From a virus: DNA of 20,061 bases. A program made the position numbers and the translations under genes. The stretch is from positions 1-20,061 of the IMG/VR virus record IMGVR_UViG_3300007770_000115; one strand, 5' to 3'. Shown here one piece after another: positions 1,299-18,999 of the stretch (its first letter is position 1; each line of letters starts with the position of its first letter). The notes under the pieces are model-generated. The model saw nothing but the letters and a program-made list of their open reading frames with translations, made no database searches and was not told the DNA's origin.

Positions 1299-1719
1299 GC
1301 AACAGATTCGCGACGCCGTCGTTGCCGCGCTCACGACGGCCGCCATTGCCGGCGGCCGCATCTATAGCGGCCACGTTTACCGGCTCAGTACCCTCCCAGC
1401 GGTCAACGTCACGACGCCCGCCGAGGAGCGCGACGAGGACAAGAGCGCCAACGATGCCGACGCCTTCGCCGTCGTCATCGCCGTCAACATTCACGCGGCC
1501 GCCGCGAGCGATCTCGATGACACGCTCGACGCGCTGGCCGCCGCGATCCATCAGACCATGGCCGGCGATAGCACCCTCGCCGGCCTGGTTACAGTGCTTT
1601 CGCTACTCGAGACCGAGACCGAGCTCGAGGATGAGGCGAAAACGCCCCATGGGCGGCTCACGATGCGCTGGGGCGCGCTTTACCACGTGAGCCCGACGGA
1701 CCCCGAGAGTCTCGTTTAA
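1285..1719 (+). CDS. Tail terminator protein, lambda U-like
   Basis: This 144-aa protein corresponds to the lambda gpU family, whose hexamer closes the head-proximal end of the tail tube and sets where polymerisation stops. Family-like features are an N-terminal helix (ARQQIRDAVVAAL), a GRIYSGHVYRL turn followed by LPAVNV, an LDDTLDALAAAIHQTM helix, and a C-terminal RLTMRWGALYHVS strand. ATG at 1285 is preferred over an in-frame ATG at 1231 because AAGG at 1271-1274 precedes it. It overlaps the end of the Z-like gene and is followed 15 nt later by the tail tube gene, the lambda order. Confidence 0.8.
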   Translation: MAHARQQIRDAVVAALTTAAIAGGRIYSGHVYRLSTLPAVNVTTPAEERDEDKSANDADAFAVVIAVNIHAAAASDLDDTLDALAAAIHQTMAGDSTLAGLVTVLSLLETETELEDEAKTPHGRLTMRWGALYHVSPTDPESLV

Positions 1720-1734
1720 CGCAGGAGGACGCAC

Positions 1735-2133
1735 ATGGGACTGTTTCACGGCAAAAACGGCTCGGTCGATTTCAACTCGATCACGGTTGGAAGCGCCAAG
1801 AGCTGGTCATATGAGGAAACCGCCGAGCTCGCCGATAAGACGGCGATGGGCGACACGACCAAGAGTTACTCGACCGGCGTGACCGACGGCTCCGGTTCCA
1901 TCACGTGCGTTATGAGCGCCGTCGATGGCTCGGCCCAGGATACCGGTCAGGCCGATATCGACGTCGGCGACGAGGTCACGCTCATCCTCTACCCGGCCGG
2001 CAACACGTCCACTTACTCTAAGTGGGAGGGCACCGTCACCGTCACCGGCGTCAGCCGCAGCGCCGACCTTTCGAGCATGGGCGAGTTCTCGTTCACGTTC
2101 CAGGGCGGCCTCACCCAGGGCACCGTTACCTAG
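1735..2133 (+). CDS. Major tail tube protein
   Basis: This 132-aa beta-rich protein is the likely tube subunit (lambda gpV position), polymerising on the tape measure to form the DNA conduit. It begins MGLFHGKNGSVDF and contains SAKSWSYEETAELADKTAMGD and repeated Ser/Thr-Gly strands. A VGDEVTLILYP strand and a STYSKWEGTVTVTGV segment lead to the end, typical of tail tube beta-barrels. It lacks the extra C-terminal Ig-like domain found on lambda gpV and is therefore short. A very strong GCAGGAGGA at about 1721-1729 precedes the ATG, consistent with high expression of an abundant structural protein. Confidence 0.85.
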   Translation: MGLFHGKNGSVDFNSITVGSAKSWSYEETAELADKTAMGDTTKSYSTGVTDGSGSITCVMSAVDGSAQDTGQADIDVGDEVTLILYPAGNTSTYSKWEGTVTVTGVSRSADLSSMGEFSFTFQGGLTQGTVT

Positions 2134-2148
2134 CAGGAGGTTTAGGAA

Positions 2149-2517
2149 ATGTCGAGCAGGCCCGACGTTAACAGCATCGCAACGGCACACTTTCGCGAGG
2201 TCATGGGAAACGTGCGCGTCATCGACGCCCCGGAATGGGGCTTGACTGGCGAGCACGCTATCCACGTTTGGCCGGCCACGCTCACCGAGCTCCAGCGGAT
2301 CAACCGCAAGGCCGGCGCGAATAACAACAACCTCGAGCTCCTGGCCGAGACTCTGATCGTCCGCGCTCGGTTCGCCGACCGCACCCCGATCTGGCAGGCC
2401 GGACACCGTGCCGTCATCATGCACGAATTCGATCCCGACGTTGTTGCTCGAGTCGTCGCCGAGATCAACGACGACCAGGCCGGCGGCACGGCGGCGGGAG
2501 GGGATTCGGGAAACTGA
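2149..2517 (+). CDS. Tail assembly chaperone, G-like product
   Basis: This 122-aa protein occupies the lambda G position between tail tube and tape measure. Such proteins coat the tape measure and recruit tube subunits but are absent from the finished tail. Visible features are an N-terminal HFREVMGNVRVIDAPEWG segment, a TLTELQRINRKAG helix, and a helical acidic C-terminal region (DPDVVARVVAEIND) followed by a Gly-rich tail. An AGGAGG at 2134-2141 precedes the ATG. The last two codons, GGA AAC, form part of a GGGAAAC slippery heptamer directly before the TGA, so a fraction of ribosomes should shift into the next frame (see the fusion product). Confidence 0.85.
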   Translation: MSSRPDVNSIATAHFREVMGNVRVIDAPEWGLTGEHAIHVWPATLTELQRINRKAGANNNNLELLAETLIVRARFADRTPIWQAGHRAVIMHEFDPDVVARVVAEINDDQAGGTAAGGDSGN

Positions 2518-2732
2518 TAATCGGCGGCGAGCTCGTCGTCACACTCGAGGAGCTCGCCGCCATAACCGCCAGTCTCACGACGATCAGCGACGCCGCGATA
2601 TTGAATCTATACGGCTTCGCCGAGATCCTGGGGCGCACCGTTGACGAGCTTGCCGACGTAATGACCCCGTCCGAGCTCGTGAGCTGGGAGCACATCAAGG
2701 CCGAACAGCTCAAGCGAAAGGGCAGGCTATGA
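2149..2732 (+). CDS. Tail assembly chaperone GT fusion made by -1 frameshift
   Basis: A -1 shift at GGGAAAC (2508-2514) makes the ribosome read CTG at 2514 next, avoiding the TGA at 2515-2517. The new frame stays open for 72 codons to the TGA at 2730-2732, which overlaps the tape measure ATG. The predicted fusion is about 194 aa. The extension has no usable start of its own near its beginning. It reads as protein: LIIGGELVVTLEELAAIT, then a helical segment with GRTVDELADVMTPSELVSWE, ending in a basic KAEQLKRKGRL. In lambda the equivalent gpGT is made at GGGAAAG; its T part binds the tube subunit while G binds the tape measure. The frame and motif are read directly; function is by analogy. Confidence 0.85.
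2508..2561 (+). promoter_or_regulatory. Programmed -1 ribosomal frameshift signal
   Basis: GGGAAAC at 2508-2514 is in the X XXY YYZ register of the upstream gene (codons GGA 2509-2511, AAC 2512-2514). Eight nucleotides later a perfect 12-bp inverted repeat starts: GGCGGCGAGCTC at 2523-2534 and GAGCTCGCCGCC at 2550-2561, with a 15-nt loop. Slip site, spacer and stem match the standard layout of bacterial -1 frameshift signals. Confidence 0.88.
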
Positions 2733-5263
2733 CCGTCAGAGCGCGCTATAGGTTCGACGCCCAGGATGGGAGCAAGAGAGCTGTTCGGAGCTTTCGCAAG
2801 AATATCCTGAGCGCCGATCGCGCCGTCGATGGACTGAAAAAGCGCCTCGTCGGCATGGCCGGCGCCGCCGGCCTGGGCCTGGTCGCTCGCGAGGTTGTCA
2901 AGACCGGCGTGAGCTTCGGCCGCGAAATGGCAAACGTCCAATCGATCACCGGCGCCAGCAAGCGCGAGCTCGATGCGCTCACCAACTCGGCCCGCGAATG
3001 GGGGCGCATCACCGCCTTTAGCGCAAGGGAGGCCTCCCAGGCGCAATACGCGCTGGCCAGCGCGGGCCTCGACGTCAAGCAAGTCATCGGCTCGCTCGGC
3101 CCGGTCCTCAAGTTTGCCGGCGCTGCCCAGGCCGAGCTCGGCCAGGCCGCCGAGATCACCGCCGGCGCCATGAATGCTTTCAAGCTCAAGGCCAAGGATA
3201 CCGAGCGGATCGTTAACGTGTTCGCCGCCGGCATCAAGGCGAGCCCGCTCAACGCCGAGCGCCTGGGCGACGCGCTCGCCTACGCTGGCCCGATCGCCGG
3301 CACGTTCAACATGAGCCTCGAGGACACCGTCGGCATCCTCGGCGCATTCCACTCGGTAAACATCAAGGGAGCGATGGCCGGCACGCGCTTCGCCTCGACG
3401 ATGCTCGCAATGCAAAAGGCGATGACAAGCAGCAAGGGCAGGATTTCCGAGCTCCTCAAGGCCTGGAAGCCGATGGAGACCGGACTTATCGGCGGCCTCG
3501 AGCTCCTCGAGTCGGCCGGCTACTCGGCCGAGGAGGCGCTCGCCGAGCTCGGCGCGAAGGGTGGCCCCGGCCTGGCCGCGCTCCTGACCAAGGGCACCAC
3601 GGCGATCAAGGCGATGCGCGACGCCGTCACCGATACCGACCAAGCGACCGAGGCCTACAAGACGCAGATGGATACCACCTGGGGCGACTTCAAGACCCTT
3701 ATGAGCGCGCTCACCGACAAGGCTATCGGCGGCTGGGGGAAGATCGAGGACGGCGTGCGCGGTTCGTTGCAGCGCATGACCGAGGAGATCAATTCATGGG
3801 GGCAGAGTATCCAGGACGAGGCCATTCAGTCGATGAAGGACCTCGGCCAGGAGATCGAGCATATCCAGCAGCTCACCGCGATCCGCGACCTCGTCGATAC
3901 CACAGCGGAGCTCAACAGCGAGAGCGGGAGCCTCTTTGACGCATTCGAGGCCCTGGGCAAGACGACCGAGCGTTACGATACGAGCGTCAAGCGCCTCGGC
4001 GCCGTCATGTCCGACGGCACTTTCGCCGCAAAGGGCCTGCATTCGAGCTTCAACGATCTCGCCGTCAGTGAGGGCTATTGGGTTGGCATGGTCGCCAAGG
4101 ATGCGATTCAAATGATGGAGCAACAGAATCGCGCAATGGATGCGGCCGACGAGCGCGCCCGACAGCTCGCCGAGAGCTTCGACGCTCTCGGCGTTGACTT
4201 CACGAGCCTCCTTGGCGATATCCGCGCCCTACACGGCACGCAAGACCCGTTCAACACGGCCAACGCCGAGACCGCCGCCGCGCTGATAGAGCGGATCAGC
4301 GAAGCCCAGCGCGAGGTGAACATCGGCCTCCTCAAGGGCGAGATCAGCGGCGAGGCCTGGGCGACGATGCGCGACCGGCTCGAGGAATACCGCAAGGCCC
4401 TCGACCTCTATGAAACCAAGCTACGCACGCTCATGGAGCTCGAGGCCCAACGCAAGGAGCTCATCGAGGCCGGCGCTGGCGGCGGCCCCGGCGGCGGCGG
4501 CGAGGAGGGTGCGATCGACCCGATCCGCGCCCTCCTCGAGGGCCGCGAGACTCCCGGCGGCGCCAACATGGCCGTCGATGACGCCCTCAAGGGCGCCGGC
4601 GACTTCTCTGGCGAGTTCGCCGATCCGGCCGAGCGCTTTAACGATATGATCGACGCCATGGCCGAGACCCGCGCCGAGGCCGAGATCCTCACCGACGCTT
4701 TCAATAACCTCGGCGCCTTCGGTGAGCAGGCAATGACCTCGCTGATCGACGCGAGCATTGCGGCCGTGCGCGGCTCGAAAAAGAGCTACGGGGAAATGGG
4801 CAAGGTCCTCGCGAAATGGACGGCCGACACGCTCAAAGCCGTCGCCTCTCAGGCCGCCGGTAAGGCCCTGTTTTACACGGCCGAAGGACTCGCCCACTTG
4901 AGCATGGGCAACGGCGTCAAGGCCGGCGAGGCCTTCGCCGCCGCGAAAACCTACGCCGTAACGGCTGGCGTTGCCGGCACCATGGCCGTCGCCGTCGGCG
5001 CCGTCAGCGCCAACAACGCACCGACAGGCGCTTTTATGTCCGAGCGCGAGAAAGAGGAAACCGCCGGCCTGGACACCTCGAGCGCGGCATCCGGCTCGCG
5101 GGCGATCACGAGCTCACAGGTCGCTCAGGCCGCCGCCGCGATCCACGTGACGCACGTTTACTATGGCAACGTCTACTTCGGCGATCAAAACCAAGCGACG
5201 ACCGAGGCGATTCAGGACCAAATTGATACTGGCGCGCTTTCCTTCGGCGAGGAGGTCTCCTAA
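2729..5263 (+). CDS. Tape measure protein, TP901-type
   Basis: This 844-aa protein is the tail tape measure, which sets tail length and is ejected ahead of the DNA. Residues about 55-320 match the phage minor tail (TP901) core. Marker segments are FGREMANVQSITGASKREL, ITAFSAREASQAQYALASAG, and a FNMSLEDTVGILGAFHSVNI stretch. Next comes the KGAMAGTRFASTMLAM stretch and a TTWGDFKTLMSALTDKAIG helix. The middle (about 350-600) is helical and coiled-coil-like. A Gly-rich linker near 585-600 separates it from a C-terminal hydrophobic Ala/Gly region at about 690-765. Using the usual rule of about 0.15 nm per residue, the tail would be near 125 nm; this is an estimate. The ATG overlaps the TGA of the frameshift product and its own ribosome site is weak, so reinitiation by ribosomes finishing GT is likely. 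Confidence 0.93.
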   Translation: MTVRARYRFDAQDGSKRAVRSFRKNILSADRAVDGLKKRLVGMAGAAGLGLVAREVVKTGVSFGREMANVQSITGASKRELDALTNSAREWGRITAFSAREASQAQYALASAGLDVKQVIGSLGPVLKFAGAAQAELGQAAEITAGAMNAFKLKAKDTERIVNVFAAGIKASPLNAERLGDALAYAGPIAGTFNMSLEDTVGILGAFHSVNIKGAMAGTRFASTMLAMQKAMTSSKGRISELLKAWKPMETGLIGGLELLESAGYSAEEALAELGAKGGPGLAALLTKGTTAIKAMRDAVTDTDQATEAYKTQMDTTWGDFKTLMSALTDKAIGGWGKIEDGVRGSLQRMTEEINSWGQSIQDEAIQSMKDLGQEIEHIQQLTAIRDLVDTTAELNSESGSLFDAFEALGKTTERYDTSVKRLGAVMSDGTFAAKGLHSSFNDLAVSEGYWVGMVAKDAIQMMEQQNRAMDAADERARQLAESFDALGVDFTSLLGDIRALHGTQDPFNTANAETAAALIERISEAQREVNIGLLKGEISGEAWATMRDRLEEYRKALDLYETKLRTLMELEAQRKELIEAGAGGGPGGGGEEGAIDPIRALLEGRETPGGANMAVDDALKGAGDFSGEFADPAERFNDMIDAMAETRAEAEILTDAFNNLGAFGEQAMTSLIDASIAAVRGSKKSYGEMGKVLAKWTADTLKAVASQAAGKALFYTAEGLAHLSMGNGVKAGEAFAAAKTYAVTAGVAGTMAVAVGAVSANNAPTGAFMSEREKEETAGLDTSSAASGSRAITSSQVAQAAAAIHVTHVYYGNVYFGDQNQATTEAIQDQIDTGALSFGEEVS

Positions 5264-6412
5264 ATGAGCACCCGCGCTTTTCTCGGAATCGAAGCCCAGC
5301 CCGCCGCCGTCGATTGCATGAGGGCGGCCGCCGGCCTCTACGTGCCTAACCATGCTTTCCGCGACGGCAACGCCAACCTTTACAGCGGGACCAAGACCGG
5401 CAACGGCGACGGCCTCTCGTGGAATAGGACGAAATATCGCGGCTGGTATTATCACGGCGCCGACGCCGGCGACGCCTATGGACACTACGGCGGCGCAAAA
5501 AGCCCTTACGGATTTCTCGACGCCTCGAGCCTCTACATCGCCACCGATCAAACGACCGCCACCGCGCCCGACTTCGCGACCAATCACCGCGTTTTGGCCG
5601 CGACGATTCATACCGATTACATTCCGTTCAACCGCTACTTTGCCGCGCACTATGACAAGGCGATCACGCTTGCGCTCGCCGCCGTCGTGCCGGCCGACGT
5701 GACGATCGGAACCAACCTCAAGGCCTTCCTCGCCTGCTACGATTCCGACGGCGCCCTCATCACGGCCGGCACTCATGGCACGCCGCCGCTCACCGAGGCC
5801 AACCCCGTTGAGCTGGTCTTTGACGACGCCGGCACGACCGGCACCGGAGATTGGCAGCGGCTCCTTGCCTCGACAGCCGAGGTCATGCCGGCCGGCACCG
5901 CCTATGTAATTCTCCATATCGGGCACAACAGTCCCGACAGCGCAAATACCGGCCTCGTCTATGGCGACCTCTCGCTCATGCTCAACCCGGCCAATGTTTC
6001 AATCGCCGAGAGCTCGCCGGTGCTGTTTCAGGATCTCGACCCGGTCGAGCTCCGCGTCGGCAGCGCAATGGCCTGGGAGGCCCTCGGCGCCTCGAGTCGC
6101 GTTATGCTCTCAGGCCAGCGCGTGCGCTCGGTCGGAATCAAGGACGGCCTCAAGGCGCGCTTTCATGCCGTGTTCACCAAAATCAGCGATGAAGCGTATC
6201 AGGAGCTCCTCACGATCTGGCACTTGAGCACGCTCGGCCTCGGCCAGCACGTGCCCGAGCCGGTGCCGGTTTGCATCGACTTCGGGCTCGGCCAGCTTCC
6301 CTTTTTCGGTTACTACAACGTCACACGCGCCAGTTTCAGCGGGAGCTTTCATCCTCATTGGACACTGGCCGGCCAAGGCTACGACGTCGCGCTCGAGCTC
6401 GAGGAGGCCTAG
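5264..6412 (+). CDS. Minor tail protein with carbohydrate-binding-like N-terminal part
   Basis: This 382-aa protein lies between the tape measure and the tail-tip gene, the position of distal tail or minor tail proteins. The first 240 or so residues look like a jelly-roll carbohydrate-binding module. A GNANLYSGT/GDGLSWNR start is followed by strands and then a segment with YDSDGALI, WQRLLASTAEVMPAGTAYV and GDLSLML, a pattern usual in such modules. The last 130 residues (DPVELRVGSAMAWEAL, SVGIKDGLKARFHAVF, LPFFGYYNVT) are a separate beta-rich domain probably used for tail attachment. The ATG follows the tape measure stop with no gap, and AGGAGGT at 5250-5256 provides the ribosome site. It ends in LELEEA, whose codons carry the ribosome site of the next gene. 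I do not recognise a named family for the whole protein. Confidence 0.72.
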   Translation: MSTRAFLGIEAQPAAVDCMRAAAGLYVPNHAFRDGNANLYSGTKTGNGDGLSWNRTKYRGWYYHGADAGDAYGHYGGAKSPYGFLDASSLYIATDQTTATAPDFATNHRVLAATIHTDYIPFNRYFAAHYDKAITLALAAVVPADVTIGTNLKAFLACYDSDGALITAGTHGTPPLTEANPVELVFDDAGTTGTGDWQRLLASTAEVMPAGTAYVILHIGHNSPDSANTGLVYGDLSLMLNPANVSIAESSPVLFQDLDPVELRVGSAMAWEALGASSRVMLSGQRVRSVGIKDGLKARFHAVFTKISDEAYQELLTIWHLSTLGLGQHVPEPVPVCIDFGLGQLPFFGYYNVTRASFSGSFHPHWTLAGQGYDVALELEEA

Positions 6413-14344: not shown

Positions 14345-15721
14345 GTGGAATATACTGACTTTGTTTCCCAGAAAAGAGCCGCCCGCGTCGATGCCGGGTT
14401 TAACCCCGGAGAACTGTCATCCGGCCTTTTCGACTGGCAGGCGGCGGTTGTCCGTTGGGCGCTGCGGAAAGGGAGGGCCGCGATCTTCGCCGACACGGGC
14501 CTCGGCAAAACTTTTATGCAATGCGAATGGGCGCGGCATGTCGCGGACCATGCGGATGGGGGAGTACTCATCTTGGCCCCGCTCGCGGTGGCGAAACAAA
14601 CCCAGCTCGAGGCCGCGAGATTCGGCATCAATGTCGAATATGTGAGGGAGCCGCCCCGGACTAGCCGGGGCGTGTGGGCAACCAATTACGAGATGGCGGG
14701 GGCATTCGACCTCGCGTCATTCGATGGAATCGTGCTAGATGAGTCCAGCATCCTCAAGAGTCAAACGGGAAAGATCCGGTCTAAGCTCATATCGGATTGC
14801 CAGAAGATTCCCTATCGGTTAAGCTGCACCGCCACTCCGTCGCCGAATGACCACATGGAGCTTGGCAACCAGGCCGAGTTTCTGGGCGTGATGAGCATGG
14901 CCGAAATGCTCGCCATGTACTTCACGCACGACGGCAGCTCAACCCAGAACTGGAGACTTAAGGGGCATGGGCGTGCGAGATTCTGGGAATGGCTCGCCAC
15001 ATGGGCCGCGTACATAAGAAAGCCGTCTGACATCGGCTATCCCGATGATGGCTATGATCTCCCCCCGATGAACATCTCTGAACACGAAGTGAAAACTGCG
15101 AAGGCGGGGGACGGGGCGCTATTCCCCGCGCCCGCGCAAACGATGACAGAGCGGCGCAAGGCGAAGCGAGACAGCATCGCGCAGCGAGTGGCGAGGGCGG
15201 CGGCCCTAGTCAACGAATCCGATGAGGAGTGGATAGTGTGGTGTCACCTAAACGCAGAGCAGGACGCGCTTGAATCTGCGATAATCCGAGATTGCGTTAG
15301 CGTCCGGGGGGCGGATTCGATAGAGGACAAGGAGTCTCGGCTTTCCGCGTTCGCGGCGGGTCGGGCGAAAATCCTGATATCAAAGCCGTCCATCGCCGGG
15401 TTCGGTCTCAATCTCCAGCACACCAGGAACATGGTGTTCGTTGGGCTGGATGATAGTTTTGAGAAATTCTACCAAGCCGTGCGCCGCCAATACCGCTTCG
15501 GGCAAACCAGGGAAGTCAATGTCCATATTGTGACGAGCGACGGCGAGGGGGCAATTCGGGCGAACATTGAAAGGAAGCGCATGCAGCACGAAGAGGTGTC
15601 GGCGGAAATGGCTGCGCTTATGGGTCCGGCGATGAAGTCCGAAATCGTTGGGGCGATTCACACTAGCACCGGCTATGACGCCGGGCAGAATATGGAGGTT
15701 CCGTCTTGGTTAAATCGATAG
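14345..15721 (+). CDS. SNF2-like superfamily 2 helicase paired with a methyltransferase
   Basis: This 458-aa protein carries all the main SF2 helicase motifs. They are a Q-type entry FDWQAAVVRWAL (29-40), Walker A ADTGLGKT (49-56), Walker B as DESS (132-135, in place of DEAH), SCTATP (160-165) followed by SPNDHMELGNQAEFLG, motif V near SKPSIAGFGLNLQH (346-359), and motif VI QAVRRQYRFGQ (377-387). This is the compact SNF2 type common in phages next to DNA methyltransferases. No nuclease domain is seen; the C-terminal 60 residues are helical. It starts with GTG, AGGAG lies at 14331-14335, and it overlaps the methyltransferase gene by 16 nt. Codon use and GC content differ strongly from the flanking phage genes, indicating acquisition from another source. 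Role probably ATP-driven movement on DNA in a modification or defence context; not proven. Confidence 0.9.
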   Translation: MEYTDFVSQKRAARVDAGFNPGELSSGLFDWQAAVVRWALRKGRAAIFADTGLGKTFMQCEWARHVADHADGGVLILAPLAVAKQTQLEAARFGINVEYVREPPRTSRGVWATNYEMAGAFDLASFDGIVLDESSILKSQTGKIRSKLISDCQKIPYRLSCTATPSPNDHMELGNQAEFLGVMSMAEMLAMYFTHDGSSTQNWRLKGHGRARFWEWLATWAAYIRKPSDIGYPDDGYDLPPMNISEHEVKTAKAGDGALFPAPAQTMTERRKAKRDSIAQRVARAAALVNESDEEWIVWCHLNAEQDALESAIIRDCVSVRGADSIEDKESRLSAFAAGRAKILISKPSIAGFGLNLQHTRNMVFVGLDDSFEKFYQAVRRQYRFGQTREVNVHIVTSDGEGAIRANIERKRMQHEEVSAEMAALMGPAMKSEIVGAIHTSTGYDAGQNMEVPSWLNR

Positions 15722-16698
15722 ATCAAGAAGTCACCGACGACTATGCAATTTATCACGGGGATTGCGTAGAGTTGATCAGGGGGATCCCCGACGACTCGAT
15801 AGGGCTTTCCGTCTACAGCCCCCCGTTCTCGTCGCTATTCACCTACAGCGACTCTGACCGCGACATGGGCAACAGCAACGGCGACGATGAATTCTTCACG
15901 CACTATCGGTATCTTATCGCCGAGCATTACCGGACAATGATGCCGGGCAGAATAGTCGCCGTCCACTGCATGAACTTACCCACGTCGAAGCAAAACCACG
16001 GATTCGTCGGGCTGCGCGACTTTCGGGGGGAAATCATCCGGGAATTCATCGCGGCGGGATTCATCTATCACTCGGAGGTCTGTATATGGAAAGATCCTGT
16101 GACTGCGATGCAGCGCACCAAGGCCGTGGGGCTGCTGCACAAGACCATCGAAAAGGATAGTTCGCAGTCGCGGATGGGGATCCCTGACTACCTGTGCATG
16201 TTCCGCAAGCCCGGCGAGAACCCGGAGCCAGTAGCGGGGAGACTCAGGATCGACGATTTCGCCGGAGCTCGCCCGCCGGATGTGGCGCTCGACGCCTTTA
16301 ACGGCGAAGTCGATAGGTGGAATTCGATCAATATTTGGCAGCGATATGCATCGCCAGTGTGGGGCGACATCCGCCAATCCAACACCCTGCAATATCGCGA
16401 TGCCAGGGACAACGACGACGAACGGCATATATGCCCGCTCCAGCTTGATGTTATCGACCGGGCGATGCAGCTATGGAGTAACCCAGGCGACACGGTATTG
16501 TCCCCGTTCGGGGGCATCGGATCGGAGGGGTATGTCGCCGTGAGAATGGGGCGCAAGCCCGTCATGTTTGAGCTTAAGGCGTCCTACTTCGAGATCCAGC
16601 GGAAGCACATGAGGCAAGCGGTTGACGAGCGAGACACCCCAACGCTATTCGATCAATCGGACACATCCACCCCGAAGCCCGCCGACACTTGCCGGTAA
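15706..16698 (+). CDS. Beta-class DNA methyltransferase, probably N4-cytosine
   Basis: This 330-aa enzyme transfers a methyl group from S-adenosylmethionine to an exocyclic amino group of DNA. Motif IV is SPPF at 38-41, followed by a variable middle (about 60-235) that should hold target recognition. Motif X (HICPLQLDVIDRAMQLW, 241-257) precedes motif I (LSPFGGIGSEG, 265-275), giving the beta-class order. SPP(F/Y) is typical of N4-cytosine enzymes such as M.PvuII, though N6-adenine cannot be excluded. It starts with TTG at 15706, supported by GGAGGTT at 15694-15700, and overlaps the helicase gene by 16 nt. Only 3 of its 18 leucine codons are CTC, against 14 of 18 in the holin. No matching endonuclease gene is visible, so it may protect phage DNA rather than form a full restriction system. 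Confidence 0.92.
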   Translation: MVKSIDQEVTDDYAIYHGDCVELIRGIPDDSIGLSVYSPPFSSLFTYSDSDRDMGNSNGDDEFFTHYRYLIAEHYRTMMPGRIVAVHCMNLPTSKQNHGFVGLRDFRGEIIREFIAAGFIYHSEVCIWKDPVTAMQRTKAVGLLHKTIEKDSSQSRMGIPDYLCMFRKPGENPEPVAGRLRIDDFAGARPPDVALDAFNGEVDRWNSINIWQRYASPVWGDIRQSNTLQYRDARDNDDERHICPLQLDVIDRAMQLWSNPGDTVLSPFGGIGSEGYVAVRMGRKPVMFELKASYFEIQRKHMRQAVDERDTPTLFDQSDTSTPKPADTCR

Positions 16699-18381: not shown

Positions 18382-18999
18382 ATGAGCAACGAACCAACCG
18401 ATTGGCGCGACCTCGTGCCCGAGCGTGAGCCGCGCCGGATCTCCGACCGCGAGGAGCTCGAGCCGCGCACGCGAAAGCTATGCACGGCCCTCCTCGAGCG
18501 CGCCGACGCCGCCGGCGTGCCGGCCATCCTGATCGAGACCGTCCGCTATGAGGGCCGCCAGGCCTGGCTCTACGCGGCCGGCCGCACGCGGGAAGGCCGC
18601 AAGGTAACAAACGCCAAGCCCGGCGAGACCTGGCATGACCCGGCCTCGCGCCGCGCTTTCGACGTTGTGCTCATCGACGCGGCCGGCCGCGCCTGGTGGG
18701 ATGCGCCGGCCGAGCGCTGGGACAAGCTCGGCGCCATCGGCAAGGGCCTCGGCCTGACCTGGGGCGGCGACTTCCCTGGCCTCCGCGATGCCGGACATTT
18801 CCAGCTCGACCGCGTCACGCTCGCCGAGGCCAAGAGCATCATCGACGCCTATCGCGTCAAGGCCGTGCGCGCCGAGCTCATCATCGCCGACCAGCGCGCC
18901 CTCGCCCTCGCACGCGAGCTCACCGAGCTCCGCGAGATCCTCGAGGGCCTGGTCGATTTCGTTGGCGCGCCGGCCGACAACGAGGAGCTCGAAACATGA
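18382..18999 (+). CDS. Endolysin, M15-family peptidase
   Basis: This 205-aa protein matches phage peptidoglycan peptidases of the M15 (VanY / L-alanyl-D-glutamate) group. Likely zinc ligands are H85 in GETWHDPASRRAFD, D94 at the end of that motif, and H139 in GLRDAGHFQL, with D136 as candidate catalytic base. WDKLGAIGKGLGLTWGGDF (113-131) is a family signature. The H-to-D distance is 9 residues rather than the usual 7 of SxHxxGxAxD, an insertion seen in this DPASRRAFD variant. No signal peptide or membrane segment is present, so export should need a holin. Residues 150-205 are a helical tail, including a 9-residue stretch shared with the tail-tip protein. GGGAGG just before the ATG is the ribosome site. 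It is translationally coupled to the next small membrane protein. Confidence 0.85.
   Translation: MSNEPTDWRDLVPEREPRRISDREELEPRTRKLCTALLERADAAGVPAILIETVRYEGRQAWLYAAGRTREGRKVTNAKPGETWHDPASRRAFDVVLIDAAGRAWWDAPAERWDKLGAIGKGLGLTWGGDFPGLRDAGHFQLDRVTLAEAKSIIDAYRVKAVRAELIIADQRALALARELTELREILEGLVDFVGAPADNEELET
18842..18870 (+). repeat. 29-nt exact repeat shared with the tail-tip gene
   Basis: Bases 18842-18870 are identical to 9809-9837. Both are read in the same frame and encode DAYRVKAVR, here in the C-terminal helix of the endolysin and there in the tail-tip protein. The two proteins are otherwise unrelated around it. Confidence 0.85.

Follow-up and report, generated by a model that had tools for sequence, protein, structure and literature searches.

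The tail assembly chaperone genes of an uncultured phage very probably carry a programmed -1 ribosomal frameshift signal of the lambda G/GT type, at positions 2508-2514 of the 20,061-nt stretch of DNA that we analysed (IMG/VR record IMGVR_UViG_3300007770_000115; hereafter the window). Many long-tailed phages use such a slip back before a stop codon to make two versions of a tail-helper protein. This reading of the sequence, proposed in a first-pass annotation, was upheld by our comparisons: it is supported by the gene order, a match to a chaperone profile, a T domain in the -1 frame, and a slip site present in every relative examined.

Slip site, reading frames and neighbouring genes

The window has a lambda-like order of genes (FII-like head-tail joining, PF05354; Z-like, PF06763; U/gp17-like; V; G/T; H), in which the G-like ORF sits between the major tail protein and tape measure genes (Table 1). 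The G-like ORF matched the PHROG tail assembly chaperone family phrog_16513 (E 3.5e-9) and shares 32-37% identity with the annotated chaperone of Rhodobacter phage RcRhea; a search of the G-like protein against Pfam gave no chaperone family match. Elsewhere, the window encodes a holin of the GTA_holin_3TM family (PF11351; 13056-13517), as in gene transfer agents, a helicase (Helicase_C/SNF2-like) followed by an N6/N4 DNA methylase (14345-16698), and a Peptidase_M15_4 protein (18382-18999).

Table 1. Features of the tail chaperone region (window positions)
Feature	Coordinates	Strand	Remarks
Major tail protein (V position)	1735..2133	+	phrog_10528, E 5.5e-6
G-like tail assembly chaperone ORF	2149..2517	+	122 aa + TGA
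Slippery heptamer GGGAAAC (G_GGA_AAC, in register)	2508..2514	+	abuts the stop
T-like -1 frame extension	2514..2732	+	72 codons (2514-2729) + TGA 2730-2732
0-frame stop TGA	2515..2517	+	directly 3' of the slip site
Spacer, slip site to stem	2515..2522	+	8 nt
Stem, 5' arm GGCGGCGAGCTC	2523..2534	+	12 bp, perfect
Loop	2535..2549	+	15 nt; predicted inner fold: 1x1 mismatch, 3 bp, 7-nt terminal loop
Stem, 3' arm GAGCTCGCCGCC	2550..2561	+	pairs with the 5' arm
Tape measure protein	2729..5263	+	PF10145, E 2.8e-29; phrog_1533, E 1.5e-51

The 3' end of the G-like gene reads TCG GGA AAC TGA in the 0 frame, and GGGAAAC spans its final two sense codons. The first-pass annotation had the location and register exactly right, its phrase "two codons before the stop" denoting these last two sense codons. 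It had also described a 72-codon open -1 frame with no early start, ending in a TGA that overlaps the tape-measure ATG at 2729, and the coordinates confirm each of these features: past the slip site, the -1 codons are CTG ATA ATC, and the earliest canonical starts in this frame are TTG 2601, ATG 2661 and GTG 2679.

The extension also encodes a homologous T domain. A profile built from the extensions of relatives matched the window segment 2325-2729 (19.2 bits, E 1.3e-5), the only significant match among 358 six-frame segments (runner-up, E 0.67). The matching domain covers residues 25-58 of the extension.

In-register slippery heptamers are rare in the window, with three in 5188 codon positions of its 13 ORFs (GGGAAAC at 2508, GGGAAAC at 2205 and GGGAAAG at 14767). 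Two of these lie within the G-like gene. The 55 nt that follow the second GGGAAAC (2205-2211, read as ATG GGA AAC) fold with moderate stability (-27.8 kcal/mol), and the -1 frame entered from this heptamer is closed by a stop at 2322-2324, so slippage there would yield a shortened protein. The matching position of RcRhea reads MRGQ, and the 2205 heptamer therefore does not look conserved. Its presence shows that a heptamer need not have an evident role, which counts against the frameshift reading.

If the signal operates as in lambda, the majority of ribosomes would stop at the TGA at 2515 and release the 122-aa G-like chaperone. A minority would slip back one base on G_GGA_AAC, re-pairing from GGA to GGG and from AAC to AAA, and would read on to the TGA at 2730 to produce a G-T fusion of ~194 aa. 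The stem at 2523-2561 may stall the ribosome and so stimulate slippage. By analogy with lambda, many copies of G would bind the tape measure, and the rarer G-T would recruit the tail-tube subunit.

Conservation of the slip site among relatives

Relatives were chosen for their similarity to the G part of the protein alone, not for a slip site, and identical regions were removed, leaving 59 distinct sequences including the window. Matches from a scan for slip patterns had been chosen for their slip site and were excluded from the conservation tally; they entered only the structure statistics and the T-domain profile. Searching phage records at the DNA level with positions 1700-5300 gave no match, and a first profile scan of genome contigs found no relatives; a second such scan gave five Rhodobacterales loci. 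Single-protein scans of viral contigs returned only two near-identical contigs. These two contigs, from other samples, have an identical slip site and stem, and their sole difference from the window over 1735-2760 is at 2494.

An in-register slippery heptamer was present in 59/59 distinct sequences, that is, in the window and 58/58 relatives. The first-pass annotation had suggested comparing relatives for loss of the slip site and stem, and this outcome supports the signal. Sixteen of the heptamers are GGGAAAC and 43 are AAAAAAN, mostly AAAAAAC. Besides the window, GGGAAAC in register occurs in RcRhea, R4C, L013, L033, L037, L038, L044-L054, L092 and L124. In all distinct sequences but L123 (8 codons), the distance from heptamer to stop is zero or one codon, and the extensions of relatives run to 45-108 codons, except in L089 (3 codons in its stored sequence).

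Two overlapping frames that encode adjoining parts of one functional unit are also what one would see if a sequencing error, or a true frameshift mutation, had split a single gene. We give this explanation almost no credence: the two contigs from other samples share the slip site and stem, and dozens of relatives with this -1 arrangement and a slippery heptamer already refute it.

The T-like frame might instead give a protein of its own rather than part of a fusion, with ribosomes terminating and then reinitiating at the TGA or close to it. The stop reads TGATG in RcRhea (L002), L046, L048-L051 and L054, which places an overlapping ATG of the -1 frame at the stop, and the window has a purine run, GGGAGGGG, upstream at 2496-2503. 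In those TGATG relatives a free T product arising by reinitiation is possible. For the window we regard reinitiation in place of fusion as very improbable. Its -1 frame opens with CTG ATA ATC and offers a first canonical start only at TTG 2601, where no obvious ribosome-binding site is seen by eye; many relatives also have no start there, yet the heptamer is kept in all.

The T extension is annotated unevenly. R4C (L008) has none annotated, the T region of phi3LM21 carries a separate CDS labelled 'hypothetical', and in HTVC111P and HTVC112P a minus-strand ORF was called where the -1 extension follows AAAAAAG. These annotation misses concern L008, L039, L040 and L041.

The stem-loop downstream of the slip site

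The perfect 12-bp stem with a 15-nt loop, claimed by the first-pass annotation to start eight nucleotides past the slip site, is exact by coordinates. Its spacer falls in the 5-9 nt range for stem-stimulated -1 frameshifting, and the stem is stable. The same annotation called the hairpin unusually exact, a description that holds in part. The inverted repeat at 2523-2561 is the sole perfect one with 12-nt arms and a loop of ≤30 nt in the 20-kb window, and the 93-nt fold has a z of -3.4, with 0/200 dinucleotide shuffles as stable. When the peptide was held fixed and codons were drawn by the phage's own usage, however, an arm of at least 12 bp arose in 1072 of 20000 resamplings (5.4%), and 52 of 4000 (1.3%) reached an MFE equal to or below that of the window.

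The earlier caution that GAGCTC is common in this genome, and that part of the stem could reflect codon bias, was right. The window holds 65 copies of GAGCTC against ~7 expected from base composition, and of 42 copies tested, 38 are in phase with the codons GAG CTC and encode Glu-Leu. The excess is a codon habit rather than a motif. The stem is unusual, yet much less so than its appearance suggests, and its perfection is partly codon bias.

Is the stem a stimulator? The family as a whole bears on this question. Under codon permutation, 42 representatives had a mean z of -1.12 at +5 after the slip site (an excess of structure), compared with -0.04 to -0.55 at seven upstream offsets in the same representatives, a baseline that reveals a weak background structure bias. 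The 45-nt intervals starting 0-10 nt past the slip site were the most structured positions examined in this way (family mean z -0.81 to -1.12; Wilcoxon p ~1e-4 to 3e-4, with rows that are not fully independent). As judged from these predicted folds, the family as a whole tends towards extra structure right behind the slip site. The window ranks among the members with the strongest folds, and L048, L050, L008 and L092 have stems of differing sequence at the same place. Several relatives, mainly AT-rich ones with AAAAAAC (L097, L109, L042), are without a good stem, so the stem is not universal.

From these comparisons, we consider it likely that the stem at 2523-2561 stimulates frameshifting. 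The weaker bacterial AAC slip codon would fit a need for such a stem. A frameshift without a stimulatory stem is a serious possibility, although not the one that we favour: the 12-bp stem would then be a by-product of the palindromic Glu-Leu GAG CTC lying beside Gly-Gly and Ala-Ala codons, and the heptamer and adjacent stop would drive slippage. The codon resamplings with an equal or longer stem, the roughly ten-fold excess of in-phase GAGCTC, and the relatives that conserve the slip site but have no stem all point this way. Against it stand the extra structure found family-wide at the same position after codon control, the strength of the window's own fold, and the different-sequence stems that occupy the same place in four relatives.

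The one mildly distinctive feature of the window is that its stem lies within an extra stretch of coding sequence. The T domain is preceded by 24 residues here versus few residues after the slip in most relatives, making the stretch between slip site and T domain ~20 codons longer than usual, and the stem falls inside it. This extra stretch (2514-2585) encodes TLEELAAITA, which resembles the T domain's own TVDELADVMT, and is possibly an old partial duplication. The idea that the stimulator was gained as a coding insertion, supplying a strong hairpin that compensates for the weak bacterial AAC slip codon, is speculative and in our judgement rather unlikely.

Other candidate elements were considered. 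A pseudoknot could form between GTCGT in the loop and a downstream ACGAC, but 5 bp in a stretch so repetitive and GC-rich is unpersuasive. The purine run at 2496-2503, taken as a Shine-Dalgarno-like stimulator, has no counterpart by eye in RcRhea or R4C. Rfam contained no family matching this region. In R4C, a T run comes behind the stem that lies past the slip site (L008 1845-1867), and this stem would also resemble an intrinsic terminator.

Relation to known frameshift systems

The lambda slip heptamer is GGGAAAG, and the first-pass annotation treated the GGGAAAC of the window as a notable departure from it. This emphasis is not supported by comparison: GGGAAAC has been documented for several other phages, and the nearest relatives conserve it. 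The closest named relatives are the Rhodobacter Cronusvirus phages RcRhea, RcCronus and RcSaxon. The chaperone is deposited as a two-piece joined CDS in RcRhea and RcSaxon, and a -1 frameshift has been stated for the Cronusvirus tail assembly chaperone (PMC4882933). Like the window, RcRhea has GGGAAAC directly before TGA, a -1 extension, and the tape measure gene next. Cronusvirus differs in its shorter extension (46 codons versus 72), in a different and weaker stem, and in the TGATG overlap at the stop. Dinoroseobacter phage R4C carries the same GGGAAACTGA as the window.

The window shares with the lambda G/GT system (Levin 1993; Xu 2004, 2013, 2014, as cited in PMC5009743) its gene order, the -1 direction, a slip near the end of G, and a T extension before the tape measure. 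In Burkholderia phage KL1, gp18/gp19 have GGGAAAC immediately before TGA and a predicted downstream stem-loop (PMC3483164); KL1 differs in having an additional tail gene before its tape measure. GGGAAAC is likewise reported as the chaperone slip site of Caulobacter phage Colossus (PMC3556154) and haloarchaeal virus HCTV-1 (PMC5009743), which belong to different phage groups from the window.

The site in the window looks genuine and is well formed but ordinary, and GGGAAAC slip sites in tail chaperone genes have already been reported. The finding leaves our understanding of the frameshift mechanism unchanged. It provides, at the level of sequence, confirmation of an uncultured phage with a conserved tail-chaperone frameshift, and should aid annotation, in which the T extension is often overlooked or wrongly called. 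It also makes the stem-dependence of AAC-type sites easy to test, and yields a family-wide dataset in which all relatives keep the slip site, of the GGGAAAC or AAAAAAN type, and the stem appears to turn over freely.
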